Positions 35,185 to 59,718 of a stretch of 64,000 nt of DNA are shown piece by piece (positions within the stretch are counted from its first letter, which is position 1; each line of letters opens with the position of its first letter). The notes beneath the pieces were generated by a model. It was not told the DNA's origin and made no database searches. It saw only the letters and a program-made list of their open reading frames with translations. Location of the stretch: positions 62,001 to 126,000 of the forward strand of contig NZ_PCPT01000004.1 of assembly GCF_002975435.1 (NCBI RefSeq), read 5' to 3'. The stretch comes from Arthrobacter sp. MYb227. GTDB lineage: Bacteria; Actinomycetota; Actinomycetes; Actinomycetales; Micrococcaceae. The position numbers were made by a program, and so were the translations under genes.

Positions 35185-36588
35185 TTACATGCCAAACTCT
35201 GCGGCCGAATCAAACGGACCCACCACGGTGATCGTGCGCGGACGCGAAACCAGCAGAGCTGCAAGCTCCTTGACCTGATCGGCGGTGACAGCCTTGACGC
35301 GCTCGAGCGACTCATCGATGTCGTGGAAGACACCGGTGACCAGCTCGGCACGGCCCAGACGCGACATGCGTGATCCCGGATCTTCAAGCGCAAGCACCAT
35401 TCCGCCGGAAAGCTGACCAACTGCTTTGCACAGCTCTTCATCGGTGATGCCGTGCTCGGCAAGCTTCTCAAGCTCGGAGGCAAGCAGCTTGATGACCCGT
35501 TCGGTCTTGGCAGGTGCACACCCTGCGTACATGCCAAAGTAACCGGCATCCGAGTAGGCTGCGGAGAACGAGTAGGTGGAGTAGACAAGTCCGCGCTTCT
35601 CGCGAATCTCCTGGAAGAGGCGTGAGGACATGCCGCCACCCAGGATGGCGTTCAGCACGCTCATTACATGGCGGCGCTCATCGGTGGCCACGATGCCGGG
35701 GCAGCCCATGATGATGTTGACCTGCTCTACGGGGCGGCGAATAACCTCAATGCGCTCCGAGCCGGTGATCTCTACAGGAACAGTGGAGCGACGCTCAACC
35801 GGGCTTGCGCCTTCCTTCAGTTCCCAACCGGCCTCGGTGAGTGCCTTCAGGACCAGCTCGCAGACCACGTCATGGTCAAGGGAGCCTGCTGCGGTGATGA
35901 CAATTTCATCCGGGGTGTAGAAACGCTGGTAGTGCTCCCAAACCGATTCACGGCTAATGCCGGTAATTGCTTCCGGGGTGCCACCGATCGGACGGCCCAG
36001 TGCGTGCTCGCCAAGAACAGCTTCAACAAAGCGCTCGTGCGCAACGTCCCCCGGATCATCCGCATCCATGGCGATCTCTTCGAGGATCACGTCGCGTTCT
36101 TGCTCGAGCTCATTTGGATCAATCACTGCAGAGGTGATCATGTCCGCAATGACGTCAATGGCCATCGGCAGATCGGTGTCCAGCACGCGAGCGAAGTAGC
36201 AGGTGCTTTCCTTGGCGGTTGCCGCGTTGGATTCGCCGCCTACCTCGTCAAAGGCGGAGGCGATTTCCATGGCGGTGCGGCGCTTGGTGCCCTTGAACAA
36301 TAGGTGTTCAAGGAAGTGGGTGGAGCCGTGCTGGCCATCCTGCTCATCACGTGAACCCACACCCACCCAGAAGCCAATGGTTGCCGAACGCTGACCGGGC
36401 ATGGCCTCGGTCAGTACACGAACACCACCGGGGAGTACCGAACGGCGCACGAGTGCGCCACCAGCCTCACCATGGATGATGGTCGGGTCTCCCGCCTCGA
36501 TGGGGGCGGCGGTACCGGTAGCACCGCGCTCCCCTGCCTTAGCAGGGGTTACTCCAACACCGTTGAGCGGCAGGGGAATCATAACCAC
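35185..36588 (-). CDS. M16 family zinc metallopeptidase (pitrilysin/processing-peptidase-like)
   Basis: The 467-residue protein has the inverted zinc motif H-F-L-E-H at residues 91-95 and the downstream glutamate in the segment E-L-E-Q-E-R-D-V-I-L-E-E. The inactive second half-domain, with R-E-K-R-G-L-V-Y, follows. M16 peptidases of this size are encoded directly after pnp in most actinobacteria. Here pnp is 5.7 kb away, separated by accessory genes. A GTG start (36588) is chosen because AGGA lies 8 nt upstream; an internal ATG two codons later is the alternative. Confidence 0.94.
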   Translation of the reverse strand: MVMIPLPLNGVGVTPAKAGERGATGTAAPIEAGDPTIIHGEAGGALVRRSVLPGGVRVLTEAMPGQRSATIGFWVGVGSRDEQDGQHGSTHFLEHLLFKGTKRRTAMEIASAFDEVGGESNAATAKESTCYFARVLDTDLPMAIDVIADMITSAVIDPNELEQERDVILEEIAMDADDPGDVAHERFVEAVLGEHALGRPIGGTPEAITGISRESVWEHYQRFYTPDEIVITAAGSLDHDVVCELVLKALTEAGWELKEGASPVERRSTVPVEITGSERIEVIRRPVEQVNIIMGCPGIVATDERRHVMSVLNAILGGGMSSRLFQEIREKRGLVYSTYSFSAAYSDAGYFGMYAGCAPAKTERVIKLLASELEKLAEHGITDEELCKAVGQLSGGMVLALEDPGSRMSRLGRAELVTGVFHDIDESLERVKAVTADQVKELAALLVSRPRTITVVGPFDSAAEFGM

Positions 36589-36858
36589 AGAAAATGTCCT
36601 TTACAGTCCATTGAAAATTTGGGGAATTTCGCGCGAACGAGTGCGCGAAACGCATTAATCTATTCTTCCACAGTGGTGGTGAAACCCTAGCGGGCTATGA
36701 GAGGTCTCTCATTCAGGTTTCCAACGAATTCGAGGAACCAAACGCATGTATCAGACGACCTCCTTGGCAATAAGGCAGCCAGCGTGGTGGTCATCCCTGT
36801 TGATCCGATGACCAGCACGCTGGCGTGTTCCCCATTTCAAGCTATTCCGCCATGCGAC

Positions 36859-38304
36859 TCAGCTTCTCGTTGTCATCTCCACGCCCTTCTTATCTCGGCG
36901 TTGAACATGCCTCGAACGGAGCATCCCCAGGACGAATACAAGGAATGGGATGGTACCTAACAGGATGCTCAGAGTCAGGCTGCTACCGGTGACGAGCGTG
37001 AAATTTGCCAGCACCAATACTAGGCTCATGCTCAATCCTGCCAATGCCAGTATTGGCACGATAAGCGTTTTCGCTGTGTTCCCGCCCTGTTTTCCAGGTC
37101 CACGCCGGAAGAAGACAATGACTGCCAATGTTGTGGTCCATAAGAGAATGACCATTCCAACCGTTGCGACTCCAGCCATGGATCCAAACACACCAACCAG
37201 TGGATCAACGTTAAAAATGGCGAATACCGCAAGAAGAATCAAGGCCGTGCCAGTCTGAACGATCGAAGAGCGCGCCGGAGATTTGTGGTGTGGATGGATC
37301 GAGTCCAGCCATGCCGGCAAATGCCCTTTTCTAGATAGAGCCAATTGGTAACGGGTGATGACGTTATGGAAAGACAGAACACATGCAAATAGACTTGTCA
37401 GCAACAAGATATTGACGATATCTCGCCCCATGGTCCCAAGGTACGCAGCAGTCGTATCAAGGAGCATGTTTGCTTCTCCATCAAGTGTTTGTCTCGCTAC
37501 ATCACCAACCTGCGCTGGACCGATGGCCACGACAAACATCCAGCAAGTGAACGCATAGAACGCACCAATCAGGAACACAGCAATATAGGTGGCACGTGGA
37601 ATCGTCCGACTTGGGTCCCTCGCTTCATCACGGAATATTGCTGCGGCTTCAAAACCAATGAACCCTGTCAGCGCAAACAACACTGCCACACCCAGCGAAC
37701 CAGAGGTAAAAGTGGACGGCTCGAATGAAGCAAGTGACAGGCCTTCCGGGCCAGGGTTTGCAAGGATGGACAGGTTCAGAATCAACACAACGCCGATTTC
37801 AAGTACTAGCGCGACACCTAAGACTTTCGCGCTCAAATCAATGTGCCGATACCCCAGCGCTGCAACTATCAATAGCGTCAAAAGCGAATACAGAGGCCAA
37901 GGAATCTCCGGCCCGCCGTAAAAACGAACAGTATCGTCAACCGCCCACCCAATGTATCCATAAATCCCGGCCTGAATGGCGGTGTAGGAAACCAGCGCCA
38001 CAAACGCGATGCCCAGGCCTGCCCGACGCCCAAGTCCTTCGGTCACGTATGAATAGAATGCGCCAGCTTCTCGGACGTGAGGCGTCATAGCAACGAAACC
38101 TACGCTAAAAAGCAAGAGAACAAGCGCAGCAATGAGGAATCCGACCGGTGCCCCGGCTCCGTTGCCCAAGCCCATCCCTAAAGGCATATTGCCACCGATG
38201 ACGGTCAGCGGTGCCGCTGCGGCGACAACCATAAAGACAATAGCGGTGGGTCCCAATTTTCCGGCAAGCCGTGCCGCGGGCTTGGCGTCAGTACTTTCCA
38301 ACAT
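36859..38304 (-). CDS. APC family amino-acid permease
   Basis: The 481-residue transporter has 12 predicted membrane segments and the APC opening motif (G-P-T-A-I-V-F-M-V-V-A-A-A-A-P) in helix 1, with G-F-E-A-A-A-I-F-R-D-E-A-R-D-P in the helix 6-7 region. The substrate is unknown, most likely an amino acid or amine. The ATG at 38304 has GGAG 5 nt upstream. It follows the DmpA-type peptidase by 31 bp on the same strand, so the pair probably hydrolyses and moves peptides or amides. Confidence 0.9.
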   Translation of the reverse strand: MLESTDAKPAARLAGKLGPTAIVFMVVAAAAPLTVIGGNMPLGMGLGNGAGAPVGFLIAALVLLLFSVGFVAMTPHVREAGAFYSYVTEGLGRRAGLGIAFVALVSYTAIQAGIYGYIGWAVDDTVRFYGGPEIPWPLYSLLTLLIVAALGYRHIDLSAKVLGVALVLEIGVVLILNLSILANPGPEGLSLASFEPSTFTSGSLGVAVLFALTGFIGFEAAAIFRDEARDPSRTIPRATYIAVFLIGAFYAFTCWMFVVAIGPAQVGDVARQTLDGEANMLLDTTAAYLGTMGRDIVNILLLTSLFACVLSFHNVITRYQLALSRKGHLPAWLDSIHPHHKSPARSSIVQTGTALILLAVFAIFNVDPLVGVFGSMAGVATVGMVILLWTTTLAVIVFFRRGPGKQGGNTAKTLIVPILALAGLSMSLVLVLANFTLVTGSSLTLSILLGTIPFLVFVLGMLRSRHVQRRDKKGVEMTTRS

Positions 38305-38335
38305 GTTCACTCCGTTGTGTTGTGCGGATGACGAT

Positions 38336-39463
38336 TTAGGTATCTACGTTCATTGCCTTGCGTAAAAGTGCGTGGTCAATTGCGTGTGCGGTGACTCCAT
38401 GAGGACCGACAGTGGTTTCTGCAGCCACAAGACAATTGACAATTGCTTCCTCCGTCGCTTCCACCGTCAGGTCAAAGAGCCTTGTCATAAGCTGCGGAGC
38501 GACCATTCGCACCGGGATTTCGGGTTCGTCGACTCGATGATTCTCGTCCCATGCATAGGGTGGGATGTTTCGGTTTCCGGTTGAGAATGCGATGATCAAA
38601 TCTCCGCTATATTGCTCCCCAGTTCCGCCCATGCGGCCAATGGCCAAGGCCGCACGCTGGGCGAGCCTCGTACATTGGTGTGGCAGCAAAGGTGCATCGG
38701 TTGCTACCACGACAACAATTGAGCCAGACCCTCTCTCAAAGCGTTGAGAGTGCTCAGGGACTGGTATTATTTCTGCGCCAATCCGCTCACCAACGGGTAC
38801 TCCGTTAATCCGCAGCCGTTCTCGACGACCGTAATTCGACTGGACTAGAATCCCGACCGTATAACTCCCCTGAGTGGTATCCATGGTGCGGGAAGAAGTG
38901 CCAATACCGCCTTTGAAGTCGTGGCAGATCATTCCGGTACCGCCACCAACCGCACCCTCTTGGACTGGTCCGGTTGTGGCGCCGGCCAGAGCTTCGGCAA
39001 CGTGTTTTGCCGTCACGTGATGACCATTGATGTCGCTGAGCAAACCATCATAGGTTTCGGCCACCACCGGCAAACTCCAGTAGAGCCCCTCTCCCCGTGC
39101 TTCGACTTGAGCTCTCACCATCGCGTCTCGTACAACGCCTACACTGTGTGTATTTGTCAGGGCTATGGCCGAGGTCAGTTCGCCGGATTCACGGATCCAC
39201 TCCAACCCTGTCATTTCGCCGCTGCCGTTGAGGCGATGAGCGCCAGCGAAGACGGGCTCGTTCCATATTTGATCGTACGGAACAATCACTGTCACGCCGG
39301 TATTAACCGGGGAGGCACCAGGCTCGTCGCGTTGGATGGTTACCTGCCCAACTTTGAGCCCTGGTACGTCGGTAATTGAGTTGTGCTCCCCCGTGGGATG
39401 TTCACCAATCACGATGCCCAGTTCACGAGCTCGTATGGGTTTGACTGCAATTCTTTTCAACAT
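38336..39463 (-). CDS. DmpA/BapA-type P1 family aminopeptidase
   Basis: P1 (S58) peptidases are N-terminal nucleophile enzymes that self-cleave before a serine. The 375-residue protein has the family segments N-S-I-T-D-V-P-G-L-K-V-G, G-G-G-T-G-M-I-C-H-D-F-K-G-G-I-G-T-S-S-R, and the likely cleavage site in R-G-S-G-S-I-V-V-V-V-A-T-D-A-P, where Gly-Ser is cut. Members release N-terminal D- or beta-amino acids. The start at 39463 gives the family length. It is followed by an APC permease and divergent from a TetR gene. Confidence 0.92.
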   Translation of the reverse strand: MLKRIAVKPIRARELGIVIGEHPTGEHNSITDVPGLKVGQVTIQRDEPGASPVNTGVTVIVPYDQIWNEPVFAGAHRLNGSGEMTGLEWIRESGELTSAIALTNTHSVGVVRDAMVRAQVEARGEGLYWSLPVVAETYDGLLSDINGHHVTAKHVAEALAGATTGPVQEGAVGGGTGMICHDFKGGIGTSSRTMDTTQGSYTVGILVQSNYGRRERLRINGVPVGERIGAEIIPVPEHSQRFERGSGSIVVVVATDAPLLPHQCTRLAQRAALAIGRMGGTGEQYSGDLIIAFSTGNRNIPPYAWDENHRVDEPEIPVRMVAPQLMTRLFDLTVEATEEAIVNCLVAAETTVGPHGVTAHAIDHALLRKAMNVDT

Positions 39464-39473
39464 GTTAAAAGAA
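39451..39473. promoter_or_regulatory. Near-palindrome over the DmpA start, possible TetR operator
   Basis: A 23-bp sequence centred on AACATGTT (TTCTTTTC-AACATGTT-AAAAGAA) reads the same on both strands except for one base per arm. It overlaps the ATG of the peptidase gene. Two further inverted repeats lie between it and the TetR gene (GGTCTC/GAGACC, 39501-39528; AATGGT/ACCATT, 39538-39567). A repressor bound in this region could control both divergent units. Confidence 0.5.
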
Positions 39474-39579
39474 TGGCCTACGTCACACATTTGCGCAAGA
39501 GGTCTCCGGGTGACTACTTGCTTGAGACCCAAGGCATAATGGTTCTTACTAGTGCATCAATACCATTGGAAGGCCAAAA

Positions 39580-40191
39580 TTGGCGCGAAAGAGTACTCGA
39601 ATACAGCGTGCTGACGAGATCCTTGACGTAGCAATCCACGTCATTGAAGACAAAGGCATGGACACTTTCCATTTACGCGACGTCGCCAAGGAAATGCGCC
39701 TGACGGAAAACGCAATCAGGTATTACTTCAAAAGCACACCGGATATGATCCAAGCTTTGGCAGCGCGATCGGACCCGCGATTCCTCGAGGAACGCAGCGA
39801 AATATCGAGAGATCTAGATACCCACGAAGAAAAGTTAGCCACACTCATCAGCCTCGGTGTTCCACGCGGAAGCGAAGACACTGAATGGAGAGTCATCTGG
39901 TCGGCGGTACTGACGGCCGGCTTTCAGCTGGACAAACAACAATCCATTCAAGGAATCTTTCACCGGCAGGTTGATCTGTACAAGCAGGTGCTCCAAGCAG
40001 GGGCCGACTCAGGTGCTTTTAAACTAACCCACGAGGCACACGATATTGCGATAACCCTCATGTCCCTCGAAGACAACTTGGGCTACCGGATCGTTGCCCA
40101 CGATCCACAGATCGCACGAAGCGACGCGATTCGAATTATGCGTCAGTATGCCGAACTTGCCACGGGAAGCACATTACCGATTCTGGATTAG
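39580..40191 (+). CDS. TetR family transcriptional regulator
   Basis: The 203-residue protein has an N-terminal TetR helix-turn-helix (I-Q-R-A-D-E-I-L-D-V-A, then F-H-L-R-D-V-A-K-E-M-R-L-T-E-N-A-I-R-Y-Y-F) and an all-helical ligand-binding remainder. The start is a TTG at 39580 with GGAAGG 6 nt upstream; no ATG is available before the HTH. It is divergent from the DmpA-type peptidase and permease genes and is their likely regulator. Confidence 0.9.
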   Translation: MARKSTRIQRADEILDVAIHVIEDKGMDTFHLRDVAKEMRLTENAIRYYFKSTPDMIQALAARSDPRFLEERSEISRDLDTHEEKLATLISLGVPRGSEDTEWRVIWSAVLTAGFQLDKQQSIQGIFHRQVDLYKQVLQAGADSGAFKLTHEAHDIAITLMSLEDNLGYRIVAHDPQIARSDAIRIMRQYAELATGSTLPILD

Positions 40192-40298
40192 TTTCCAAGA
40201 ATAACGACATCATTCGCCTGACTACGCGATAGAAGAAGCTTTCCCGCGCCCAAAGCCAAACCTTGGACCGCAACTCTCCGCAAGGATCAGCCGAATAA

Positions 40299-40338
40299 AA
40301 AAGTCCCGACCCACCATTCAAGGTGGGCCGGGACTTTT
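40299..40338 (-). terminator. Duplicated pnp terminator (distal copy)
   Basis: AAAAGTCCCGACCCACC and GGTGGGCCGGGACTTTT form a 17-bp stem with one mismatch and a 6-nt loop. It is a copy of the terminator after intact pnp at 42272-42312. Confidence 0.85.
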
Positions 40339-40590
40339 TAGCCTAGAAGACTAGGAATTACTTACTCAGCAGCTGCTTCGGCGTTCTCATCCTCAGCAAC
40401 GACCGGGGCAAGCGAAAGCTTTCCACGGTCGTCAACCTTGGTGATTTCAACCTGGAGCTTCTGGCCAACGGAGACAACGTCTTCAACGTCATCAACGCGC
40501 TTGCCACCGGCGAGCTTGCGCAGCTCGGAGATGTGCAGCAGGCCGTCCTTGCCCGGGGTCAGCGAAACGAACGCACCGAAGGTGGTCAGC
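40299..40590. repeat. Displaced copy of the pnp 3' end and terminator (attR-like direct repeat)
   Basis: This segment matches 42272-42563 almost base for base. From the stop codon (40362) into the gene there is one difference in about 229 bp, and the terminator hairpin and the sequence between it and the stop are also duplicated with a few changes. The identity ends abruptly at about 40590: the next 29 bp differ at about a fifth of positions and then similarity is lost. The pattern fits integration of an element into the 3' end of pnp. Confidence 0.9.
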
Positions 40591-40619
40591 ATCACGACGA
40601 TACCCAGGTAGCAATCGCC
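40362..40619 (-). pseudogene. pnp 3'-end fragment (S1 domain and tail, 85 residues)
   Basis: The frame encodes the last 85 residues of polynucleotide phosphorylase, covering most of the S1 RNA-binding domain and the acidic tail, with no start or upstream catalytic domains. It differs from intact pnp by Ala for Thr in the tail and by several changes at its upstream edge (Y-L-G-I-V-V-M against Y-L-G-T-V-V-K). The same frame runs open to 40769 but the added part is unrelated sequence. It is best read as a displaced target end, not a functional gene. Confidence 0.9.
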
Positions 40620-40697
40620 GTACAGTCCGCCAAAACGTTCCAATAAAAAGGGCAACCCTCCATCCCGATCAAGCGCTTGGCAACAGAGATCACTATT

Positions 40698-40733
40698 TTG
40701 CGCAAGGCAGTTTGCGCAAACAGCCTTGCGCAA
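40698..40733. repeat. Three TTGCGCAA palindromes at 14-bp intervals
   Basis: The 8-bp palindrome TTGCGCAA occurs at 40698-40705, 40712-40719 and 40726-40733, exactly 14 bp apart. The array lies 108 bp from the edge of the pnp duplication and 66 bp before the start of the 154-residue protein gene. It could be operator sites for that gene, recombinase or excisionase arm sites, or iteron-like repeats. Confidence 0.8.
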
Positions 40734-40798
40734 ACTACTCTTACGGGAGTGAACTAACCCGAATGACACCGAAACTTCAATAATAAGGAAATCAAACT

Positions 40799-41263
40799 AT
40801 GTTCAGTTCGACCACAGACGGCGTAGCTCTTGCCCGCAATGCACGAAAGGAACTACCCGGGATCCTCACTGATACGCGGCAATTCAACAATGTGCAGATA
40901 GATCGCGGCCGAGTTACCGCCACTCGTCCTGATGGCAAGCAAGAAGTGCTGGTCATAGGTGCCCGGCGATATTCCCTCGACGAAGAATTGCATTCGGATA
41001 TGACGCACATTGCAGCCACACGCCTCACTACAGCCTTTGAGCAAACTGGCATCTCCCCTGGCGCAGTATTCCTTGTACTTAATGCATCCGGAACAAGTCT
41101 AAGAATCACGGTGCTTCCCAAGGATGTAATCGATCGAATGCTAGCTATAGGAACAGTTTTGACTATGAATGACACGCTATTAATGAGGTACCCGAACGGC
41201 TTTGAAAAAATTGTCAAAGAGAACGGTGGACATGTCATTACCTTCCAAAGTAGCCACGCTTAG
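40799..41263 (+). CDS. Hypothetical protein of the pnp-end module (154 residues)
   Basis: A ribosome-binding site (AAGGA 9-10 nt ahead of the ATG) and an uninterrupted frame support a gene. The soluble protein alternates short strands and helices, with no motif I can assign. It is preceded by the three phased TTGCGCAA palindromes and followed, after about 150 bp, by the membrane protein gene of the same module. Composition is more AT-rich than pnp, consistent with foreign origin. No integrase or transposase similarity is seen. Confidence 0.7.
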   Translation: MFSSTTDGVALARNARKELPGILTDTRQFNNVQIDRGRVTATRPDGKQEVLVIGARRYSLDEELHSDMTHIAATRLTTAFEQTGISPGAVFLVLNASGTSLRITVLPKDVIDRMLAIGTVLTMNDTLLMRYPNGFEKIVKENGGHVITFQSSHA

Positions 41264-41415
41264 GTCTCTCACTCGTTACAAATATTCGAGGAACCTTGCG
41301 GGGGTCTCGTGTGTCCCTTCAGCTCAGCAGCTTTTAGACATACACCGCAGCAATGTCGATTCTTCTTCCCAGATTGCCAACCGCACACCCTCACCAATTC
41401 AGAAATGAGTCTAGA

Positions 41416-42003
41416 ATGCTCAGTGGATTAACGGAAAAAACTTTGAATTCCCTATTGGGAAAACGCGTGTTACTGTCTCTCTGGCAGTGGATCGGAGGGC
41501 TTTCCGTATGCCTGTTTATAGCGGCGCAGTTCGAAGAAACATCCGCTGCCCTGCTAATAGCAAAAATCGGTGACTTCTTGGGAATGCCATCAGGGTTCAT
41601 GAAGACATTTCATCAAACCAATTCATGGCTTCTAGAACGTCAAGGGTTCTTTACAACGATAACCGCGGTAACTATATCGCTTGCAGTAGCGTTCACAGTC
41701 TTCGCAAACCACATACCAAAAAATGATGGTGCCCTTGAACTCGGCCCAGCACCCGCCACCTTATGCGTAGCATTACTTCTATGGCAGAGCATAGGTTTCC
41801 CCGCTCCTCTGGGCGTCTTGTTTGGAACACTAATGTGCCTAGCCGGTATCGGCTATCTAGCCCGTCAGGGGTTAGCCGGCGAAAGACAGTCCATTGGACA
41901 ATCGTTTGTTCTCGGATTCATATCTCTCACTATGCAAGTCTTATGGGTACCGATCCTACTTTTTGTAGCCTTCTTTATCCGCAAAGACTCTCAAGATGTC
42001 TAG
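41416..42003 (+). CDS. Hypothetical membrane protein of the pnp-end module (195 residues)
   Basis: The protein has four or five hydrophobic segments (about residues 18-38, 70-95, 108-125, 127-145 and 160-190) and ends with a short charged tail. No family is recognised. The start is unsure: the ATG at 41416 begins just before the first helix, while an in-frame ATG at 41353 would add 21 residues; neither has a good ribosome-binding site. It is the last gene before the second pnp repeat, with about 265 bp of AT-rich non-coding DNA between. Confidence 0.65.
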   Translation: MLSGLTEKTLNSLLGKRVLLSLWQWIGGLSVCLFIAAQFEETSAALLIAKIGDFLGMPSGFMKTFHQTNSWLLERQGFFTTITAVTISLAVAFTVFANHIPKNDGALELGPAPATLCVALLLWQSIGFPAPLGVLFGTLMCLAGIGYLARQGLAGERQSIGQSFVLGFISLTMQVLWVPILLFVAFFIRKDSQDV

Positions 42004-42271
42004 TTAAATAAAAAGGTCAACTTCAACAACCAACTCGCATCCATCCGATGGGCCGTTACGCAACATACCCGATACCTAAATAGCTGGAAGATCCTCCTGG
42101 AAAGATACGGCAGCACGGTTCTTTGAACTACATGCCGTCACCCGAAATGTGTCGGTGTCCCGAGTTCTTAAACCTCGTAGAATCCTATACCCGATCAAGA
42201 TTCATCTTAGTAGCTGCAGCCATCAACATACAGAAAGCTATAACACGCAAGAGTGTTCTACCTGAAAAAGA

Positions 42272-42312
42272 AAAAAATCCCGGCCCACCAATCAAGGTGG
42301 GCCGGGACTTTT
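42272..42312 (-). terminator. pnp terminator
   Basis: A stem formed by TCCCGGCCCACC and GGTGGGCCGGGA around a 5-6 nt loop, bordered by an A-run on one side and TTTT on the other, sits 23 bp past the pnp stop. Confidence 0.85.
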
Positions 42313-42563
42313 AGCCTAGAAGACTAGGAATTACTTACTCAGCAGCTGCTTCGGTGTTCTCATCCTCAGCAACGACCGGGGCAAGCGAAAGCTTTCCACG
42401 GTCGTCAACCTTGGTGATTTCAACCTGGAGCTTCTGGCCAACGGAGACAACGTCTTCAACGTCATCAACGCGCTTGCCACCGGCGAGCTTGCGCAGCTCG
42501 GAGATGTGCAGCAGGCCGTCCTTGCCCGGGGTCAGCGAAACGAACGCACCGAAGGTGGTCAGC
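42272..42563. repeat. pnp 3' end and terminator, proximal copy (attL-like direct repeat)
   Basis: This is the counterpart of 40299-40590 and includes the actual 3' end of the intact pnp gene. Its offset from the other copy is 1,973 bp, which sets the size of the inserted module. Confidence 0.9.
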
Positions 42564-44566
42564 TTCACGACGGTGCCGAGGTAGCGCTCGCCAATCTCAG
42601 GAACCTGAGGGTTGGCAATGGCGTTCACTGCGGAGCGTGCGGCTTCTGCCGACTCTCCGTTGGTGGCGCCGATGAGGACGGTTCCGTCGTCCTCGATGGA
42701 GATATCCGCACCGGTATCTTCCTGGATCTGGTTGATCATCTTGCCCTTCGGGCCGATGACCTCGCCGATCTTATCAACCGGGATCTTCACCGAGATGATG
42801 CGCGGAGCGTAGGTGGAGAGCTCATCCGGGGTATCAATGGCCTGGTTCAAGACATTGAGGATGTGCAGACGTGCCTCGCGTGCCTGGGTCAGCGCAGCTG
42901 CCAGGACCGATGCCGGAAGACCATCAAGCTTGGTATCAAGCTGGATAGCGGTGATGAACTCCGAGGTACCTGCAACCTTGAAGTCCATATCGCCCATGGC
43001 ATCTTCGGCGCCGAGGATGTCGGTCAGTGCCGCGTAGCGGGTCTGGCCGTCAACTTCATCCGAAACCAAGCCCATGGCGATGCCGGCAACGGCAGCGCGC
43101 AGTGGGACACCGGCGTTGAGCAGCGACAGGGTCGATGCACAGACCGAGCCCATCGAGGTCGAGCCGTTGGAGCTCAAAGCCTCGGAGACCTGGCGGATTG
43201 CGTATGGGAATTCTTCACGCGACGGCAATACCGGAGTGATTGCGCGTTCTGCCAGGGCACCGTGACCGATTTCGCGGCGCTTAGGCGAGCCCACACGGCC
43301 GGTTTCACCGGTCGAGTATGGCGGGAAGTTGTAGTTGTGCATGTAACGCTTGCGGGTTACCGGGTTCAGCGAGTCAATCTGCTGTTCCATCTTCAGCATG
43401 TTCAAGGTGGTGACGCCCATGATCTGGGTTTCGCCACGCTCGAAGATAGCCGAACCGTGCACGCGAGGCAGAACCTCAACCTCGGCGGTGAGCTTACGGA
43501 TATCCGAAAGACCACGGCCATCCATACGGACCTGATCCGTCAGGATGCGCTGGCGCACAACGTGCTTGGTCAGCGAGCCGAAGGCCTTGGAGATTTCGGA
43601 CGCGCGGGTCTCGAATGCTGCACCCTCTGCGGAAAGAGTTGCAACAACTTCGTCCTTGTAGGCTGATGCTGCGTTGTCGCGCTCCTGCTTGCCGGCGATC
43701 TGGTAGATCTCGGTGAGCTTGACGGTAGCTGCAGCCTCAACTGCGGCGTATGCGTCATCCTCGTAGTCGCGGAAGACCGGGAACTCAACCAGTGGCTTGG
43801 CTGCGCGAGCTGCCAAGTCTGCCTGAGCCTCGCACAGCGCCTTGATGAACGGCTTTGCAGCCTCAAGACCCTGGGCAACAACCTCTTCGGTCGGGGCGGT
43901 GTGGCCCTGTTCCTTGATGAGGTTCCATGAGTTGTCGGTGGCTTCTGCTTCAACCATCATGATGGCAACGTCGTCGCCAGCGATGCGGCCGGCTACGACC
44001 ATGTTGAAGACAGCGTTTTCCAGCTGGCTGTGCTTCGGGAAGGCAACCCACTGGGCACCGTTTCCGTCATCAACCAAGGCAACGCGAACGCCACCGATCG
44101 GGCCGGAGAACGGCAGGCCGGAAAGCTGGGTCGACATCGAGGATGCGTTGATGGCAACCACGTCGTAGAGCTCGTCCGGGTTGATTGCCAGGACGGTGAC
44201 AACGATCTGTACTTCGTTGCGCAGGCCCTTGACGAATGCCGGGCGCAGCGGGCGGTCCATCAGACGGCAAGCCAAGATGGCTTCGGTCGACGGACGGCCT
44301 TCGCGGCGGAAGAAGCTGCCCGGGATACGGCCGGCAGCGTACATGCGCTCCTCGACGTCCACGGTCAGCGGGAAGAAGTCAAAGCCTTCACGCGGGTGCT
44401 TGCCGGCAGTGGTTGCCGAGAGCAGTGCGGTATCTTCGTCGATGTAGACCATGGCTGCACCTGCAGCCTGCTGGGCCAAACGACCGGTTTCGAAGCGGAT
44501 AACTCGCTTACCGTATCGACCGTTGTCGATCACGGCCTCTGCGAATTGAATTTCTGGACCCTCCAT
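42335..44566 (-). CDS. pnp: Polynucleotide phosphorylase
   Basis: PNPase degrades RNA 3' to 5' with phosphate and can add tails. The 743-residue protein has two RNase PH domains, with F-F-R-R-E-G-R-P-S and the [16 protein letters not shown] region near residues 455-470. They are followed by a KH domain ([11 protein letters not shown]) and an S1 domain. It is complete. The ribosome-binding site AAAGGA is far (about 12 nt) from the ATG. rpsO, which normally precedes pnp, is absent from the upstream sequence. The 3' end is duplicated 2 kb downstream. Confidence 0.97.
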
Positions 44567-45752
44567 GTGGGGGCATTCCTTTCGATCGCTCCCAGGACAC
44601 TAAAGTGCGTACCTCAGTGTTCCGTACCCGGATCTGGTCTTCGATCGAGACTCGCGCTGTTATAGAGGTAGATACCCGTAAGCGAAAGCCACTACCGAGG
44701 ACCGCGATCTGCGCGGCGTGGACCCTGCTGTACACGGCCCGGGGAGTAATTGTTTGTTGTGGTTTTCCGTAATACACGGAGAACCACGTATAAGCCTACC
44801 GGGAAACGGGGAAAGGTGCAGTTCTGTGGGGCACACCGCGAACCGTTTTTGGATATGGGTCATTTTCTAGGGGTTGCTCCGTCCCCTTCTCAGATAATAG
44901 GCGCGGTTTGGGTCCACTATCTGCCTGGATCCTCAGTGAAGAACCATCCTAGTGATGGTATCCGCCGAGCTTTGTCATGGAAACCGCCGAAAGGTGCGAC
45001 CTGCGTGTAGTGGAACCCATCAAGCAACCGCAACAGTTCAGTTTGCGGGAAGAGACGTGCAGTCGCACATTCATTGAGGCTCCCACGTCAAAAACAAGGA
45101 ACTCTCGAACAAAGATGAGCCATTCACGCTGCCGATTTGAAGCGAGGTCGGTATCTATCGTGCTGCCCGTTTAGAGCGAATTTCTCGAAGGATTCAGATC
45201 ACCAATTCTGCGAAACGAAACGAGCTACCATACCTACCAGAGACCAGATCATTTCCGTTGGCGAACGTCATCCGCGAAACATTGAGGCTCCAATATTCGA
45301 CGCCGGGCCAGTTCTGTAATGAAAGAATGAATTCCGCTGGATCTCATTAGGGTCACAACCATCGGTCAAAGCCACAAAAAACGAGCCAATCTTGTGCCCT
45401 GGTTTTATCGAAGCATTCTACCGAAATCACCAGATTAATCGGCTAAATACCATTTTGGCTCAGCTGGCTGCCGCATCAGCGTATTTCCGACCGCCTGATT
45501 GGAGAATCGATCCCGATTATCTAGGACACTCCCTTCACGTTCAAACTCACAGGGCATTCAAATATGCGCCGAAATGCAGCAACTCTACTTGTTTCCTACT
45601 GCGGTCCCGGATCAAAATGCCGCGCTCCTATTGAAAGAATGAATGTCCAGATGGCGTCGCCACGCAGGCTCCATCTCGCGAAAGCGATTGGCAAGAACTC
45701 TGGGCTAGAATCTCGATAACCACTAAGTAAGTGGATAAAGCTTGGAGAATAA
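44567..45752. other. 1.19 kb without a recognisable gene
   Basis: The pnp promoter and leader should occupy the first 200 bp; a hairpin (ACACTGAGG/CTTTAGTGT) lies about 20-50 bp upstream of pnp, a place where PNPase autocontrol hairpins occur in other bacteria. The rest, to the gajA ribosome-binding site, holds only short unconvincing frames on both strands. The 13-mer TGAAAGAATGAAT occurs twice, at about 45323 and 45633. The expected rpsO gene is not found. Confidence 0.6.
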
Positions 45753-47807
45753 ATGAAAATTTCAAAAGTAGAAATCAAAGGCTTCCGATTACTACGAGAC
45801 GTACCGCTCCGATTGGACAAGAATGCAACCATAATTGTTGGGCGCAACAATAGCGGAAAGACGTCCCTCGGAGAAGTGTCAAGGCGATTTCTCGGCGGTG
45901 GCACTGGTCTGTTTAGCATCGAAGATTTCTCCGCTAATGCGTGGCAGTCGTTTCAAAGTGCTTGCCGAGACTACGTTTCACGCAAGAACAACACAACAAT
46001 CCTGTCACAAATCCCTCGAATCGAACTACGATTCCACATTGACTACTCAGAGAATCTTGATGATTTTGGGACGCTCGCTCCTTTTATCATCGATCTCGAT
46101 GATTCACGCTCAGATGCACTAATCGTTATCAGCTATGAGTTGGATCCTCGTAAACTGGGCGTTTTCTTTGAAGGGTTGATCTCGCCATCAAATGAATCCC
46201 AGCGAAATGAATTCTTTCAAAACCTCAATGAGCGCATCAAACAGTACTACCGTCGAAGTGTTCGCGCCGAAGATGCTCGTGACGCAACGAACGTTCGCCA
46301 GCTAGATTTCACTGATGTCGAAAAAGTGATTCAGGTTGGACATGTCGGAGCACAACGCGGATTGGACGACGTAACTACAAAGGACAGTGATGTTCTTGCC
46401 AAAGTCATGGAGCGCCTTTTCAATACATCGATTTCGGCAAATGGCGAAACTGCAGAAAATATAACAAGCGACCAAGTTGATAAAGCATTGGCTGATGTTC
46501 ACAAAAAGATTGACAAAAATTTCAATCAAAATCTGAAATCTCTGGAGCCGATATTTGAGCTCTTCGGTTTTCCTGGCGATGCCGGAACCAGAATTGCTAC
46601 CCAAACTACTCTAAACGTTCGGAGCATGCTCTCGAATTATACGAAAGTCAGATACCCGAACGAAACGGGGCCTTCACTTCCGGAGACTTACAATGGCCTC
46701 GGAACCAGAAACCTGCTTCATATTCTTCTCCAGATCGTCGGCCTTCACCGAAAATGGCAACAAGAAGACCAAGGATCTAGCGTCCACCTTGTATTCATCG
46801 AGGAGCCCGAAGCCCACTTGCACCCACAAATGCAGGCAACTTTCATTCGGCAACTGGGTGAGATCGTCAGGAAGCTTTCGGAGGAGTCATCAACTCCATG
46901 GAATGTCCAATTTGTCGTCTCGACACACTCATCTCACATAGCAAATACCGTCCCTTTCAAAGCTATTCGTTACTTCCTCGATAAACGCGGAAACGACTCT
47001 TCAAGAGAAACTGTAATCAAAGATCTTCAATTGGCTGCGGAGAACAATAAAGAAATCGATACAGCGTTTCTCCATCAGTATCTGACCCTCACGAGTTCTG
47101 AACTCTTTTTTGCCGACAAGGCGATCCTTATCGAAGGAACGAGCGAGCGTTTGATAGTTCCAAAAATTATAGGTGGAATGACGGCACAAGCGCGAAGCAA
47201 TTACGTCACCATACTTGAAGTAGGAGGGGCATACGCTCAAAAATTCTTACCATTGCTTGATTTCCTTGAACTCAAGAGCCTCATAATCACAGATCTAGAT
47301 TCTGTAGCCAAGAACGACAACAACCGTCTAGCTGCGTGCGCCGTCCACAAAGCGGGTGCAACGAGTAATGAAGCGTTAAAGCACTGGTTTGCGTCAGATC
47401 CGTCGGATCCCCTGAAACCTGCAACTCTCATCGGTCTCACGTCTGAGGAGAAAATTGTTCAACAGCGCCGCATCGCTTTCCAAATCCCGGAGTCCAAGAA
47501 AGGGCCATGCGGCCGCACTTTTGAAGACGCTTTCATTCTTGCAAACCCCACGCTATTTGAACTCCCGAAAGTATCATCAGATGAGCTAGAGACCGCCGCC
47601 CGTGAAGTGGCCGCGAGTTACAAAAAAACAGACTTTGCACTCAAATTTGCTGTCGAAAGTGTTGTATGGAACACCCCTCGTTATCTCCAAGAAGGACTGG
47701 ACTGGCTGCTCGCTGAAAGTACAGAACTTCCGGAGGGAAGAAACTCCGTTGCCACTGATATCGCTGTCATTCCATTAAACGAACTGGAGACTGTCGATGG
47801 GCTCTAA
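45753..47807 (+). CDS. gajA: Gabija defence protein GajA (OLD-family ATPase-TOPRIM nuclease)
   Basis: GajA is the DNA-nicking subunit of the Gabija anti-phage complex. The 684-residue protein has an ABC-type ATPase with Walker A (VGRNNSGKTSLGE) at residues 29-41, a Walker B/signature region V-F-I-E-E-P-E-A-H-L-H-P-Q-M near 347-360 and the H-loop S-T-H-S-S-H. A TOPRIM domain follows, with I-L-I-E-G-T-S-E-R near 456 and I-I-T-D-L-D near 508. The ATG has GGAG 5 nt upstream. It overlaps gajB by 11 nt. The pairing with a UvrD-like helicase distinguishes it from lone OLD nucleases. Confidence 0.93.
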   Translation: MKISKVEIKGFRLLRDVPLRLDKNATIIVGRNNSGKTSLGEVSRRFLGGGTGLFSIEDFSANAWQSFQSACRDYVSRKNNTTILSQIPRIELRFHIDYSENLDDFGTLAPFIIDLDDSRSDALIVISYELDPRKLGVFFEGLISPSNESQRNEFFQNLNERIKQYYRRSVRAEDARDATNVRQLDFTDVEKVIQVGHVGAQRGLDDVTTKDSDVLAKVMERLFNTSISANGETAENITSDQVDKALADVHKKIDKNFNQNLKSLEPIFELFGFPGDAGTRIATQTTLNVRSMLSNYTKVRYPNETGPSLPETYNGLGTRNLLHILLQIVGLHRKWQQEDQGSSVHLVFIEEPEAHLHPQMQATFIRQLGEIVRKLSEESSTPWNVQFVVSTHSSHIANTVPFKAIRYFLDKRGNDSSRETVIKDLQLAAENNKEIDTAFLHQYLTLTSSELFFADKAILIEGTSERLIVPKIIGGMTAQARSNYVTILEVGGAYAQKFLPLLDFLELKSLIITDLDSVAKNDNNRLAACAVHKAGATSNEALKHWFASDPSDPLKPATLIGLTSEEKIVQQRRIAFQIPESKKGPCGRTFEDAFILANPTLFELPKVSSDELETAAREVAASYKKTDFALKFAVESVVWNTPRYLQEGLDWLLAESTELPEGRNSVATDIAVIPLNELETVDGL

Positions 47808-49542
47808 TATAGTCGCAACCAACGCCGACGAAGTTGCGTTAGCTACTCAATCTAAAATATCCAATTGTTTGTCGGTACCTAAAAGCTTTTTGGTCGAGGC
47901 GGGTGCTGGTGCCGGAAAAACGACTTCGCTTATTGACGCGCTGCGCTTTCTACAGAATTCTTCATCGCATGCTCTGCAAAGCGGAAGGCGAGTTGCCTGC
48001 ATTACTTATACAAACGTAGCCAAAGACGAGATCCTCGATCGAATCGATGCAGATCCTCGGTTCTTCGTAGCAACTATCCACGAATTCTTCTGGTCGGTCA
48101 TGAAGCCGTTTCAAAGTCAGCTTCGCTCGCTTCTCGAACCTGAAAAGTGGGCGAAAGTACTAGAGAGGTCTGACATAGATAGCATCACGGACCAGCACAT
48201 CGAATATTCTCGTGGATATCGACGTGTGACTGAGTCCGAAGTTTCTCTTCATCATGACGATGTTCCTGCTTTAGCCGCGCTACTCATGAGAAAACAAAAA
48301 TTTGTAACTCGGCTAAAAAGTCAATACCCGATTGTTCTAATCGACGAATATCAGGACACAGATGACACGCTTGCTCATGCAATCCTGGAGCACTGTGTAA
48401 AATCCAACAAAGGCCCCGCTTTCGGCTTCTTCGGCGACGACTGGCAACAGATTCATTCAGGATCCGTGGGGAAAATTAGCCAAACAGAACTAGAAGTAAT
48501 CCAGAAAGGAACAAACTTTCGCTCCAGTGCTCCCATTGTGCGTGCATTGAATGCGATGCGCCCCACACTCACCCAGGCTATGCCGAGCCTCAAAGAGAAA
48601 GGCCAAGCATTTGTTTTTCACACTGACAAATGGCTAGACGGCAGAGTGCCCGGCACACACACTCAGAACGACCTAGATCATGAACTGGTTGATAGCGCAC
48701 TAGCTCTGGTTCGAGAAACTCTGGAAACCAATGGATGGGATTTGGCGCCAGCGAAGACAAAAACTCTTATCTTAACCCATAAGTCGATCGCTGCTCGTCA
48801 GGGCTATCCAACTATTGAGGGAATCTTTGGCAACAAGGACGATTTTGTCAAGCTTGAGAATCATCTTGTCAAGTTCCTTATTGCAATGGTCGAGCCTGCC
48901 CGAGCTCACTTCAAATCCGGACGAACCGGGATGTTCTTTGATGCCCTAGGCATTACGCAACCCATGCTGAGATGCAACTCAGACAAGTCTCATCTTCACG
49001 CTGCGCTGACCAATATTGTGAATGAAACGGAGTGCGGAACCGTCAGAAGCGTACTAGCGCACTTTCGAAAGCCGCCATTCTCAATCCCGGCAGACGTCGA
49101 GCAGCAACTCAATGAGCTTGGTGACTTGACCAGCGATAAGGAACGCACAAGACGTCAGCTGGAGCTGGAGAAACTCCTCGATGTCGACTACCGAGAGATC
49201 GTTGCCCTAAATGACTTCATAGGCCATCATTCACCTTATGAAACAGAACACGGGGTGAAAGGCGCACAATTTGAAAACGTCATCGTTCTTCTGGGTGGCG
49301 GATGGAACCACTACAATTTTCCTCGTTTCCTTTCCTATGCAGCTGACCCTTCCAAGGTGCCGCAGAAGGATTGGAAAGGATTTGTTCGGGCTCGAAACTT
49401 GTTCTATGTCTGTGCATCACGCCCCACCACCAATGTAGCGTTACTCTTCACACAGCAGCTTGAGGCCGCAGCACATGATGTTCTCGAATCATGGTTTGGT
49501 AGCAGCAACGTGCATGCACTTCCCGTTCCAACATCATCGTAG
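47797..49542 (+). CDS. gajB: Gabija defence protein GajB (UvrD-like helicase)
   Basis: GajB is the UvrD/Rep-like partner that senses DNA ends and activates the complex. The 581-residue protein has Walker A (EAGAGAGKTTSLID) at residues 34-47, motif II (V-L-I-D-E-Y-Q-D-T-D) near 180, motif III (G-D-D-W-Q-Q-I), motif IV (N-F-R-S-S) near 245, motif V (G-V-K-G-A-Q-F-E-N-V-I-V) near 490 and a late R-N-L-F-Y-V-C-A-S-R motif VI. It overlaps gajA and is followed by a hairpin. Confidence 0.93.
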   Translation: MGSNIVATNADEVALATQSKISNCLSVPKSFLVEAGAGAGKTTSLIDALRFLQNSSSHALQSGRRVACITYTNVAKDEILDRIDADPRFFVATIHEFFWSVMKPFQSQLRSLLEPEKWAKVLERSDIDSITDQHIEYSRGYRRVTESEVSLHHDDVPALAALLMRKQKFVTRLKSQYPIVLIDEYQDTDDTLAHAILEHCVKSNKGPAFGFFGDDWQQIHSGSVGKISQTELEVIQKGTNFRSSAPIVRALNAMRPTLTQAMPSLKEKGQAFVFHTDKWLDGRVPGTHTQNDLDHELVDSALALVRETLETNGWDLAPAKTKTLILTHKSIAARQGYPTIEGIFGNKDDFVKLENHLVKFLIAMVEPARAHFKSGRTGMFFDALGITQPMLRCNSDKSHLHAALTNIVNETECGTVRSVLAHFRKPPFSIPADVEQQLNELGDLTSDKERTRRQLELEKLLDVDYREIVALNDFIGHHSPYETEHGVKGAQFENVIVLLGGGWNHYNFPRFLSYAADPSKVPQKDWKGFVRARNLFYVCASRPTTNVALLFTQQLEAAAHDVLESWFGSSNVHALPVPTSS

Positions 49543-49926: not shown

Positions 49927-50624
49927 TCAGCACGGTCTGAGGTCGCGTGTTGCGAACGAAAATATTCGTAACCGGTAGTTTTCGTGGTTGATGTATCCGC
50001 GTCCCATTCGTTTGAAGTTCTTGGCTGTCAGGTTCGCTGCTTCACTGCAGGCGTTGGTGAGCCTGATGAGGCAATAGGTTTCGAGTTCTTTCTTCCGCGC
50101 AGTAAAGGTGCGTAGCAAGGATTTGGCTCCGTCAATGTCAGAGGCTTTCAGCGAGGTTTGTAGTTTGTCCACCTGACGGCAAAGCTTTCTAAGGTGCTGG
50201 TTTTTAGTAGGTCTCGTACGTGTTCTTTGATGGCGTAGATGACCGCGAGCTCAGAGTCCGATTCAAGGATTTCTTTGCGACGCTCAGTCTGTTTCTGTGA
50301 GAGATTCTCGATTTTGCGGGTCAAGAGCTTGCGGCATTCGTAGGCGGGGCCAATGTTCCGTCCGCGGTGTCCGAGCAGGTCGTGGGCATGGCATTGGACT
50401 ATATGAAAAGCGTCCACAGAGAACTTGACCTCGGGCAGAGACTTGTGGATGGCTTTACGGAATTCGCTCGACATTTCGATGGAAACATACTCGATGTTTC
50501 GCGTCCATGCTTCGGGTCGTTGAGTCTTCCGTACGGTGGCAGCGGATCCGCAGTGTTCGTCAATAAGGGTGATCTTCACGTTCGAGTCTGCTCCGCAGAT
50601 ATTTGTTCGCGAGGATTCTTCCAA
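49927..50624 (-). pseudogene. ISL3-family transposase relic
   Basis: Two frames together cover the middle and C-terminal parts of an ISL3 DDE transposase. The first (50624 down to about 50170) contains V-K-F-S-V-D-A-F-H-I-V-Q and the helical region. The second (to 49927) contains L-T-N-A-C-S-E-A-A-N-L-T-A-K and the closing H-E-N-Y-R-L-R-I-F. A frameshift near 50175 separates them. The N-terminal zinc-ribbon and HTH part is missing, so the element is dead. Sequence GGCTCTTTGAC near 49890 resembles an ISL3 end. Confidence 0.85.
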
Positions 50625-55692: not shown

Positions 55693-57579
55693 TCACAGTG
55701 CGTTGTTGGCATATTCTTGCTTTACTGGCCACACTTCACATATTGCGGTGATCAATTCAGCCGAGCGAGCACTGATATTGTCATCGGTCCATTCCGATAA
55801 GTGGTTAGCTAGAATTTCTTTGTTCAAGACAAGCAAACTGAACTGGTCGAGCAAAGTACGTTTTCCAAGTCCAGGCGAGCCACCTGCACGAAGAGTCTTT
55901 GCTTGTTCGTCAGTCCACGGTCTGTTCGATAAAGAACCATTCAAGGATTTCGTAACCAACGTCAGATTCCCGATGGTGTTTACAATGGAATCCCTCTCAG
56001 CGGCAGCTTCAACATCTAGTCTGGGTTCGGTGTCCCAATAGTTACGCCAGCCACGTGGCATGACATGTTCTACCTCAAGCTTGCTCGGTAATCCGATTAC
56101 TTCGTATTTAGAACTCTTGGTTCGTAAATGCTGTTCAACAGCACCTAGGACTACGCGAAGGCGATCTTGACGAATGTTGCCGTACAGCCGCTTCGTAAGT
56201 AGTTGGTTCTGCATGTCAGCGTCTCGGGGCCAGATCCGCGTTTCTGCTTTTTGCTCAGCCAAGTACGCAACTAATCTGTCACCTGCAGTTTCTGGCGAGC
56301 CTGACACCAGCATCTTCAAGATCGCGATCGCAAACTTATTCATATCCTTGGTAGGCAGACGAAGCAGCATACGTCGGATGGCCCAGCTTTCGAATGCCTG
56401 AAGCCCGATCTTCCGTTGCTCTGCCGAGTTGGTGTGATTTCGCGATAGGAACCACAAGAACACGGGCGTTGTAACGGCAAGTTCCAGACGTTCTATGACT
56501 CGTGAGTAAAATTGTCCTTCCGGCTTCGAAATATCTAGCTGAGAGAACGCCCGATAGGAATCGGCGTCTCTTCTTAAATCATTCAAGAACTTGTCTGCGT
56601 TCTCGACAGTAGTCATGAGTGGCTCCGCATGTTCGGTGAATACGCGGAACGAATTTTCGGCCTTTACTTCTTCAAACAATCGCATGGTTAGCCAATACTG
56701 CAAGAAAATATCAATGCGCGAACGGCTAAGCCTGCCTTGACTAATCTCTTCTCGCCACCAGCTCCCGTCAAATTCTGCCCAAATCTCATCCGCCCATTGG
56801 CCAACATCTGCCTTGAGGTTCTCCCCTTTCCGAAAAATCCAATTTTTGATCAGGTCAGCCTTCAAAAGAGGCGTTCCACGATCATTGAGAGTTTCGAAGA
56901 TTAACTGTGCATCATCATGACCAGTAAGGTCGATAGCAACGAGGACAAGACGATCTTGCAGAGTTGAGCTTAGTGCCTCTACCCGGAGCAATTCGTCCCC
57001 CTGCGGCAGCTGTCGATCCTCATCGAGGATTCCAGAAACCCAATTTAGTGCTTCGTTATTGAAGAAGCGATGTGCCTCGATAATTCGATGATCGCCAGAC
57101 AACTCTCCATTTGAATCCATCGCATGTTCGAACGCTTTGCGATCTGCTTGTGAAGGCCATAATTTGAAGCGCTCGCGTTTTCCTTTGAACCGAGACGACG
57201 GATTGACAATCAGCTCTTCAAGAGATTCTGCAAGATCATGGTGCCCTCGTTCCAGCACAACCTCGTGGACAGCATCTATTAGGATCTGGATAGTTGTCAT
57301 ACGTTGTTGACCATCGATGACATCGTGCCTTGTCACATCACCAGCCACGGGTTTCTTCGATTCGTACACTACCGCACCAAGAAAGTGCTGTACTTCCGGT
57401 TCAGCTTCGGAGTCTTTCAGCTTAGCTTCTACGAAACTCTCTGCAACGTGACGTACGTCGTCCCATAGAGGAGCCCATTGGTCTTCTTCGTTCCAAACAT
57501 AAGGTCTCTGAAACGCTGGGATTTCGTAGTGCTCTTTACCTTCGAAAAGCTCTCGAGGGCTTCGGGTGTGTGCTTCCAT
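55693..57579 (-). CDS. DUF262/DUF1524 GmrSD-type restriction protein
   Basis: The 628-residue protein has an N-terminal DUF262 ParB/Srx-like domain with P-A-F-Q-R-P-Y-V-W near residues 21-29, H-F-L-G-A-V-V-Y, and V-I-D-G-Q-Q-R-M-T-T near 87-96. Near 505-570 is a DUF1524 HNH nuclease domain with E-V-E-H-V-M-P and N-T-I-G-N-L-T-L-V. This single-chain layout is that of GmrSD-like type IV enzymes that cut modified phage DNA. Single DUF262/DUF1524 proteins also occur in other defence systems. GGAG lies 7 nt before the ATG. Confidence 0.92.
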   Translation of the reverse strand: MEAHTRSPRELFEGKEHYEIPAFQRPYVWNEEDQWAPLWDDVRHVAESFVEAKLKDSEAEPEVQHFLGAVVYESKKPVAGDVTRHDVIDGQQRMTTIQILIDAVHEVVLERGHHDLAESLEELIVNPSSRFKGKRERFKLWPSQADRKAFEHAMDSNGELSGDHRIIEAHRFFNNEALNWVSGILDEDRQLPQGDELLRVEALSSTLQDRLVLVAIDLTGHDDAQLIFETLNDRGTPLLKADLIKNWIFRKGENLKADVGQWADEIWAEFDGSWWREEISQGRLSRSRIDIFLQYWLTMRLFEEVKAENSFRVFTEHAEPLMTTVENADKFLNDLRRDADSYRAFSQLDISKPEGQFYSRVIERLELAVTTPVFLWFLSRNHTNSAEQRKIGLQAFESWAIRRMLLRLPTKDMNKFAIAILKMLVSGSPETAGDRLVAYLAEQKAETRIWPRDADMQNQLLTKRLYGNIRQDRLRVVLGAVEQHLRTKSSKYEVIGLPSKLEVEHVMPRGWRNYWDTEPRLDVEAAAERDSIVNTIGNLTLVTKSLNGSLSNRPWTDEQAKTLRAGGSPGLGKRTLLDQFSLLVLNKEILANHLSEWTDDNISARSAELITAICEVWPVKQEYANNAL

Positions 57580-57689
57580 TATGAGGCTCCATTCAGATGT
57601 TCATATAGATAGGGTTTAGCTGCTCATTTGCACCCGACTGCAATAGCTAGAGCACATTGAAGCCAATAGTCTTGCTATAGTGTGCGTAC

Positions 57690-59411: not shown

Positions 59412-59718
59412 ATTTGGTGCTCCGACCCCGAGCTTTTTCAACCGGGTATTTGGTGCGAGTCTTCTGGAGCTTTTCAAGAATGATCTCCGCCGGATCAAGC
59501 CCGATTTTGTCTGCAAGCAAGTAGGCGTATGTCAGTACATCAGCCAGTTCCTCTTTGACTCGATCAATATTCGCTTGATCATCCCATTGAAAGCACTCGA
59601 GGAGTTCACCTGACTCAATCGAAATAGATTTGGCCAAGTTAGCTGCACTATGGAATTGGCCCCATTCGCGTTCTATAACAAATTCTCGCAAAGTGGGCAT
59701 GACAGATTCAGTCGACAT
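59398..59718 (-). CDS. MazG-like nucleotide pyrophosphohydrolase
   Basis: The 106-residue protein has the all-alpha NTP-PPase pattern E-S-G-E-L-L-E-C-F-Q-W, then V-K-E-E-L-A-D-V-L-T-Y-A-Y-L, which supplies the E-x-x-E and E-x-x-D metal ligands. Such enzymes hydrolyse nucleoside triphosphates. The overlap with the GIY-YIG-DUF2075 gene suggests a joint function. A further 180 bp to pnkp contains no supported gene. Confidence 0.9.
   Translation of the reverse strand: MSTESVMPTLREFVIEREWGQFHSAANLAKSISIESGELLECFQWDDQANIDRVKEELADVLTYAYLLADKIGLDPAEIILEKLQKTRTKYPVEKARGRSTKYDQL

Follow-up and report, generated by a model that had tools for sequence, protein, structure and literature searches.

Genomic islands of the Islander/TIGER type regenerate their target gene and leave a displaced fragment of it (PMC4383910; PMC12884075), and protein-coding genes are among the known island targets (PMC12884075). 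As far as these accounts go, the locus described here is alike in that an element-borne end would keep the target whole and a displaced fragment would mark the far boundary. It is unlike them in that no integrase was found, the insertion is 2 kb, and the target is pnp, not a tRNA or tmRNA gene. The other close system is the cis-mobilizable element (CIME), as defined in PMC5704250. Within the terms of that definition, the flanking repeats here are attL/attR-like and no integration or transfer genes were recognised between them. A CIME would derive from a decayed ICE or IME; nothing recognised at the locus points to such an origin (neither of its two interior ORFs, orf154 and orf216, has a mobile-element match), and no partner element was seen at pnp in the genome. 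Based on these comparisons, the inserted segment, module A, fits the description of a CIME and would function like a displaced-fragment island.

At icd of E. coli, e14 and phage 21 supply a long replacement 3' end of this metabolic gene. A long 3' end of the target would be supplied by the element here as well. The prophage e14 encodes an integrase, whereas none was found in module A. The kind of insertion, integrase-less and CIME-like, is known; for its target, the open-licence PMC literature that was searched gave no account of insertion at pnp. If the reading is true, a conserved RNA-decay gene joins the list of insertion addresses, and the locus is an example of an element reduced to cargo. 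It offers two exact junctions and two proteins without assigned function. Seen only once and with no recombinase found, it leaves the understanding of island integration unchanged.

The locus lies in a stretch of 64,000 nucleotides from Arthrobacter sp. MYb227 (the window), and its features are collected in Table 1. The final 229 bp of pnp (42335–42563, coding sequence with the stop codon) reappear at 40362–40590 with a single difference, at 40382. With the 26 bp 3' of the stop codon, up to the terminator, the block with this one difference is 255 bp long (40336–40590). The terminators at 40294–40338 and 42268–42312 are 91% identical over 45 nt; the displaced copy is missing from the output of the terminator scan that listed the one of intact pnp. 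The initial annotation had described this repeat, its distance of 1,973 bp and the accompanying terminator, and the figures were reproduced. Near 40590, where it had noted a sharp stop of identity next to partly similar sequence, the match tapers off: the 29 bp at 40591–40619 are 79% identical, and past 40619 the similarity is gone. Taken as one direct repeat, 40336–40619 and 42309–42592 are 98% identical over 284 nt. Twelve sites in 40294–40619 differ between the copies: 40296, 40303, 40309, 40317, 40335, 40382, 40591, 40600, 40602, 40605, 40613, and 40614.

Table 1. Features of the pnp 3' end, the inserted module and the neighbouring segment (positions in the window)
Feature	Position	Strand	Remarks
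Segment B, approximate limits	36745–40280		Permease, S58 peptidase, TetR; foreign to the pnp-M16 gap
AA permease (segment B)	36859–38310	-	
S58 peptidase (segment B)	38336–39532	-	
Fourth TTGCGCAA site	39491–39498		In the 118 bp gap before TetR
TetR regulator (segment B)	39580–40191	+	
Displaced pnp terminator copy	about 40294–40339	-	Repeat D2 and inverted repeat I5
Candidate attR identity block: displaced 3' end of pnp	40336–40590	-	Open frame kept, 40362–40769
Partly similar extension, candidate element-side half of a recombination site	40591–40619	-	23/29 identical
Module A, interior between the pnp ends	about 40620–42267		Low G+C
AATAAAAAGGGCAAC (40642–40656) and CCCGATCAAG (40664–40673), inner left end	40642–40673	+	Repeated in direct orientation at the inner right end
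Three TTGCGCAA palindromes 14 bp apart (40698, 40712, 40726)	40697–40734		Upstream of orf154; operator-like array
orf154, protein without assigned function	40799–41263	+	One clear relative (53%) in 395 family genomes
orf216, hydrophobic, likely membrane protein	41353–42003	+	Hydropathy peaks; no convincing relative
Partners at the inner right end (42007–42021 and 42190–42199)	42007–42199	+	Direct repeats with the inner left end
Terminator of intact pnp	42268–42312	-	17-pair stem, T-rich tail; repeat D2
pnp-proximal repeat copy, candidate attL identity block	42309–42563	-	255 bp, 1 difference from 40336–40590
Intact pnp (polynucleotide phosphorylase), whole target gene	42335–44566	-	743 aa ORF; compared stretch 86–91% in 14/14 congeners

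A direct repeat of the 3' end of the target thus stands beside an intact gene, and the displaced copy retains an open frame with the rest of pnp absent. When 85 kb (C22:62001–147000 of the contig that holds the window) were compared with themselves with the low-complexity filter on, this was the sole repeat at E ≤ 1e-6, which places it far beyond chance. Only 40294–40619 recurs in this comparison. A simple tandem duplication, named earlier as the alternative to insertion, would hold the whole repeated unit twice and therefore fails.

The empty site is seen in relatives. In 13 of 14 congeners, all of other species, the blastn matches of the M16 gene and of the pnp end are 99–234 bp apart, and a related terminator stands between the two genes in 11 of these 13. 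The target is thus uninterrupted, as proposed at the outset for relatives of an insertion, and neither the duplication nor the arrangement pnp-A-M16 occurs in any of the 14. The fourteenth congener (G001) contains a different insert, so that its gap measures 1,311 bp; by eye, an ORF in it resembles a membrane protein. At this locus (L010, G001:C10:14237–17560), a full terminator follows pnp, and an apparent degenerate terminator start (TAAGTGAAAATCCC) can be seen by eye on the M16 side; the short TAAGTGAAAATCCC repeat is absent from the self-comparison output.

The last 88 residues of PNPase were used as the query for second copies in 395 family genomes at E ≤ 1e-12, a search that short att repeats would escape. 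One genome, that of the window itself, has two copies of the pnp end; 392 genomes have one copy and two have none. No other element was thus found at this site in the 394 other genomes at that threshold. With a DNA query of 341 bp and 59 genomes, including its own, a second long match is present in its own genome only, and the second matches in other genomes are short, with E-values of 5.8e-8 or weaker.

The G+C content of module A is 47.8%, compared with 60.4% in pnp, 60.7% in M16 and 53.4% in segment B. At third codon positions it is 48.1% and 46.3% in the two ORFs of module A and 71.9% in pnp. The low G+C, the unique occurrence and the direct junction in congeners indicate that module A is foreign to the lineage, as sampled.

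The clear relative of orf154 among the family genomes is found in another genus (G225), with 53% identity over 152 residues. It is placed away from pnp, and its neighbours resemble, by eye, genes of a type I restriction system, a sugar hydrolase gene, and a piece of a transposase. The two genes differ by codon position at 53, 43, and 103 of 154 codons. Because the differences are mostly at third positions, orf154 probably encodes a genuine protein on which selection acts. A match in G248 (30%, E 2.6e-4) in the same 395 genomes was judged to be chance. A search with a two-row alignment of orf154 found it in one of 327 genomes of the order (its own) and in one of 18 genomes of the genus of G225 (G225 itself), and the same alignment has no match in PDB at E ≤ 1. 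For orf216, hydrophobic with several hydropathy peaks and on that ground likely a membrane protein, the two matches besides its own in the family genomes (28–29%, within large frames) were also judged to be chance.

The initial annotation had described the interior as two genes without assigned function and no integrase, and the profile searches agree with this. Neither ORF matches an integrase or any other family above the curated cut-offs of Pfam and NCBIfam, both are without a match in PHROGs (E ≤ 0.1) and PADLOC (E ≤ 0.01), and no function in recombination, replication or transfer was recognised in either. HTH_58 for orf154 (E 0.083) and SLATT_3 for orf216 (E 0.078) are well below their cut-offs, and a PHROG without known function for the G225 relative of orf154 (E 0.075) was set aside. 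There was no match for orf154 in genome_contigs, viral_contigs, plasmids or phages, nor for orf216 in viral_contigs or plasmids, where the contig scans used exact peptide patterns and are insensitive. The AlphaFold2 models were too poor for use (mean pLDDT 35.2 for orf154 and 53.7 for orf216). Of the features of a transposon or IS, no transposase match was seen in the two ORFs and no terminal inverted repeat was listed. The window contains no tRNA or tmRNA gene, and Rfam gave no match at 36500–46500.

No tyrosine recombinase was found in module A, in segment B or between M16 and rpsO on C22. The tyrosine-integrase family has 13 matches genome-wide, the nearest at C22:172–174 kb, about 66 kb from pnp. 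Clusters among these matches lie at G000:C22:172100–174468 (five pieces, possibly broken genes) and at C5:26290–28720 (three in a row). Other elements carrying the last 230 bp of pnp, which the initial annotation had suggested looking for, did not appear as close copies: no phage or plasmid record has a pnp end above 84.1% identity. Two phage records match (76.7% over 64% of the query and 79.7% over 20%), both unannotated. Seven plasmid records match with identity of at most 84.1% and coverage of at most 70%, the best being an Arthrobacter record; four of the seven exceed 1.3 Mb, and one of 1.35 Mb is unannotated. All of these are presumably ordinary pnp genes and not att copies.

There is good support for the insertion of module A through recombination of two pnp ends, and site-specific integration is the likeliest route. 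Tentatively, with a confidence a little short of even, the following can be proposed. Module A would have arrived as a small circular DNA with its own last ~230 bp of pnp and a terminator. One conservative crossover between this end and the chromosomal one would have inserted 1,973 bp, most likely catalysed by a tyrosine-type integrase that acted in trans or was later lost. The intact gene would then be host-derived upstream of the crossover and element-derived downstream, so that pnp stays complete, and the original pnp end of the host would have been displaced to 40294–40590. The element would be cargo without integration genes of its own, similar to a CIME. The duplication, the foreign interior, the uninterrupted junction in congeners and the single occurrence in the family sample are established; the circular intermediate, the site-specific enzyme and the direction of the exchange are steps we infer. 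Of the site-specific insertion sparing pnp that had first been proposed, the insertion and the intact gene stood, given the 13 of 14 direct junctions and the second end in 1 of 395 genomes; the site-specificity is a likely reading with less support, as the searches described gave no tyrosine recombinase at the locus, no reuse of the target and no close pnp end in phage and plasmid records.

A reciprocal crossover predicts that the intact gene is native upstream and element-derived downstream, and that the displaced copy is the reverse. The states of the differing sites were compared in 12 of the 14 congeners, leaving out the most divergent loci (L019 and L020). Within the identity block, the copies differ at a single coding site, 40382; here the displaced copy shares the state of 12 of 12 congeners, and the intact gene is derived. 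The displaced copy is also favoured as the native one at the indel 40335 (10 to 2) and at 40296 (3 to 2), while 40309 (0 to 12), 40303 (2 to 9) and 40317 (4 to 7) favour the copy of the intact gene. The six sites left of the crossover are thus divided 3 to 3, with the coding site for the prediction and the terminator on balance against it. From 40591 on, the intact gene mostly matches the congeners and the displaced copy does not. The states at 40382 and from 40591 on are as predicted for a reciprocal crossover between these points.

The graded edge of 29 bp could be a half-shared recombinase site, which a blunt join would not leave. The direct repeats at the inner ends of module A (AATAAAAAGGKCAAC and CCCGATCAAG) could be arm-type sites; of 300 shuffles, 2 and 1 gave scores as high as theirs, a post hoc figure for repeats first spotted by eye. 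The placement of the orf154 relative away from pnp in another genus also counts for integration. Against it stand the negative search for a tyrosine integrase at the locus and the lack of a second insertion at pnp in the 394 other family genomes, and it offers no explanation for segment B or for the TTGCGCAA sites that A and B share.

Integration of a circle by RecA would yield the same product with no site-specific enzyme. In this alternative, a non-replicating circle that chanced to carry a pnp end was integrated by a single crossover. The 255 bp with one difference are ample homology for it, and they are long for an att identity block, which counts against site-specific integration. It also agrees with the negative searches for a tyrosine recombinase at the locus and for recurrence at pnp, and the site-by-site states need no fixed crossover point. 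However, natural circles carrying just the end of a gene and its terminator are rare, except as attP, and a graded extension of 29 bp is unexpected from a fragment of a near-identical strain. This route is considered rather unlikely, though the most serious competitor of site-specific integration.

The 2 kb between the pnp ends had been taken as the whole insertion. This is too small: segment B, ~3.5 kb between the displaced terminator and M16, has no room in the pnp-M16 gap of relatives, so that module A makes up only a share of what is foreign at this end of pnp. The TetR of segment B was matched in 2 of 58 other relatives at 29–30% identity (E ≤ 1e-20). On the M16 side of segment B (36600–36870), the search for a remnant pnp end gave only chance-length matches of 7–11 bases. 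The 85 kb contain four TTGCGCAA sites, which fall in one stretch of 1.3 kb and precede TetR and orf154. Their total is unremarkable (2.3 expected) but their clustering is remarkable, with 0.0075 expected in the TetR gap from shuffles of segment B. Pairs of TTGCGCAA 3–12 bases apart occur in the whole genome at this locus and at one other, C27:2625. The array upstream of orf154 hints at an operator, and the placement of the sites hints that modules A and B are linked. TetR may control orf154. Such control would make A and B one unit, with the pnp fragment inside that unit.

It can therefore be speculated that A and B arrived as one unit beside pnp, and that 325 bp, the pnp end and its terminator, were copied afterwards into the space separating TetR from orf154, perhaps through template switching. 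TetR, orf154 and orf216 are all on the plus strand, TetR is as foreign here as module A, and the shared TTGCGCAA sites would be accounted for. The graded edge of 29 bp is unexplained in this case, however, the G+C contents of A and B are unequal, and no exact TTGCGCAA is present in 19 kb around the G225 relative of orf154. These facts make a common arrival unlikely. A bolder speculation, to which still less weight is given, is that the pnp 3' end might be a dedicated address of integrase-less mini-elements of two genes (orf154 and a membrane protein, with a TTGCGCAA operator) that use a recombinase in trans. Segment B would then be an older tandem element at this same address, and its TetR would control the newcomer.

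rpsO is usually adjacent to pnp. Here they are 39.7 kb apart, the region extending from 44709 through 64000 on to rpsO at C22:146263. Eight congeners have both genes on a single contig; the gap is about 20–99 kb in seven of them and about 0.25 kb in the eighth, G012. The six other congeners have the genes on separate contigs, and the 5' end of pnp was taken from its length. pnp thus marks the edge of a large variable region, which is widespread in the genus and splits the rpsO/pnp pair. These gaps would suit an exchange of the region, in which homologous recombination on one side and an illegitimate join within pnp on the other brought in donor DNA with module A, pnp and the island genes; the locus would be the left edge of this exchange. 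Yet no congener has pnp-A-M16, and 23 matches in 29 at the join are long for microhomology; such an exchange is very improbable. Least credible of all is a misjoin at the 255 bp repeat, which is about the length of short reads in a draft of 27 contigs, because the 12 differing sites mean that both copies exist and A, B and pnp are all on one contig of 326,966 bases.

Several genes were recognised in the variable region. A Gabija pair is located at 45753–49542 (GajA, E 7.3e-248; GajB, E 2.4e-196) and is followed by a fragment of an ISL3 transposase at 50148–50624. At 55693–59516, a GmrSD restriction enzyme stands beside a Schlafen group 3 helicase with a GIY-YIG match.
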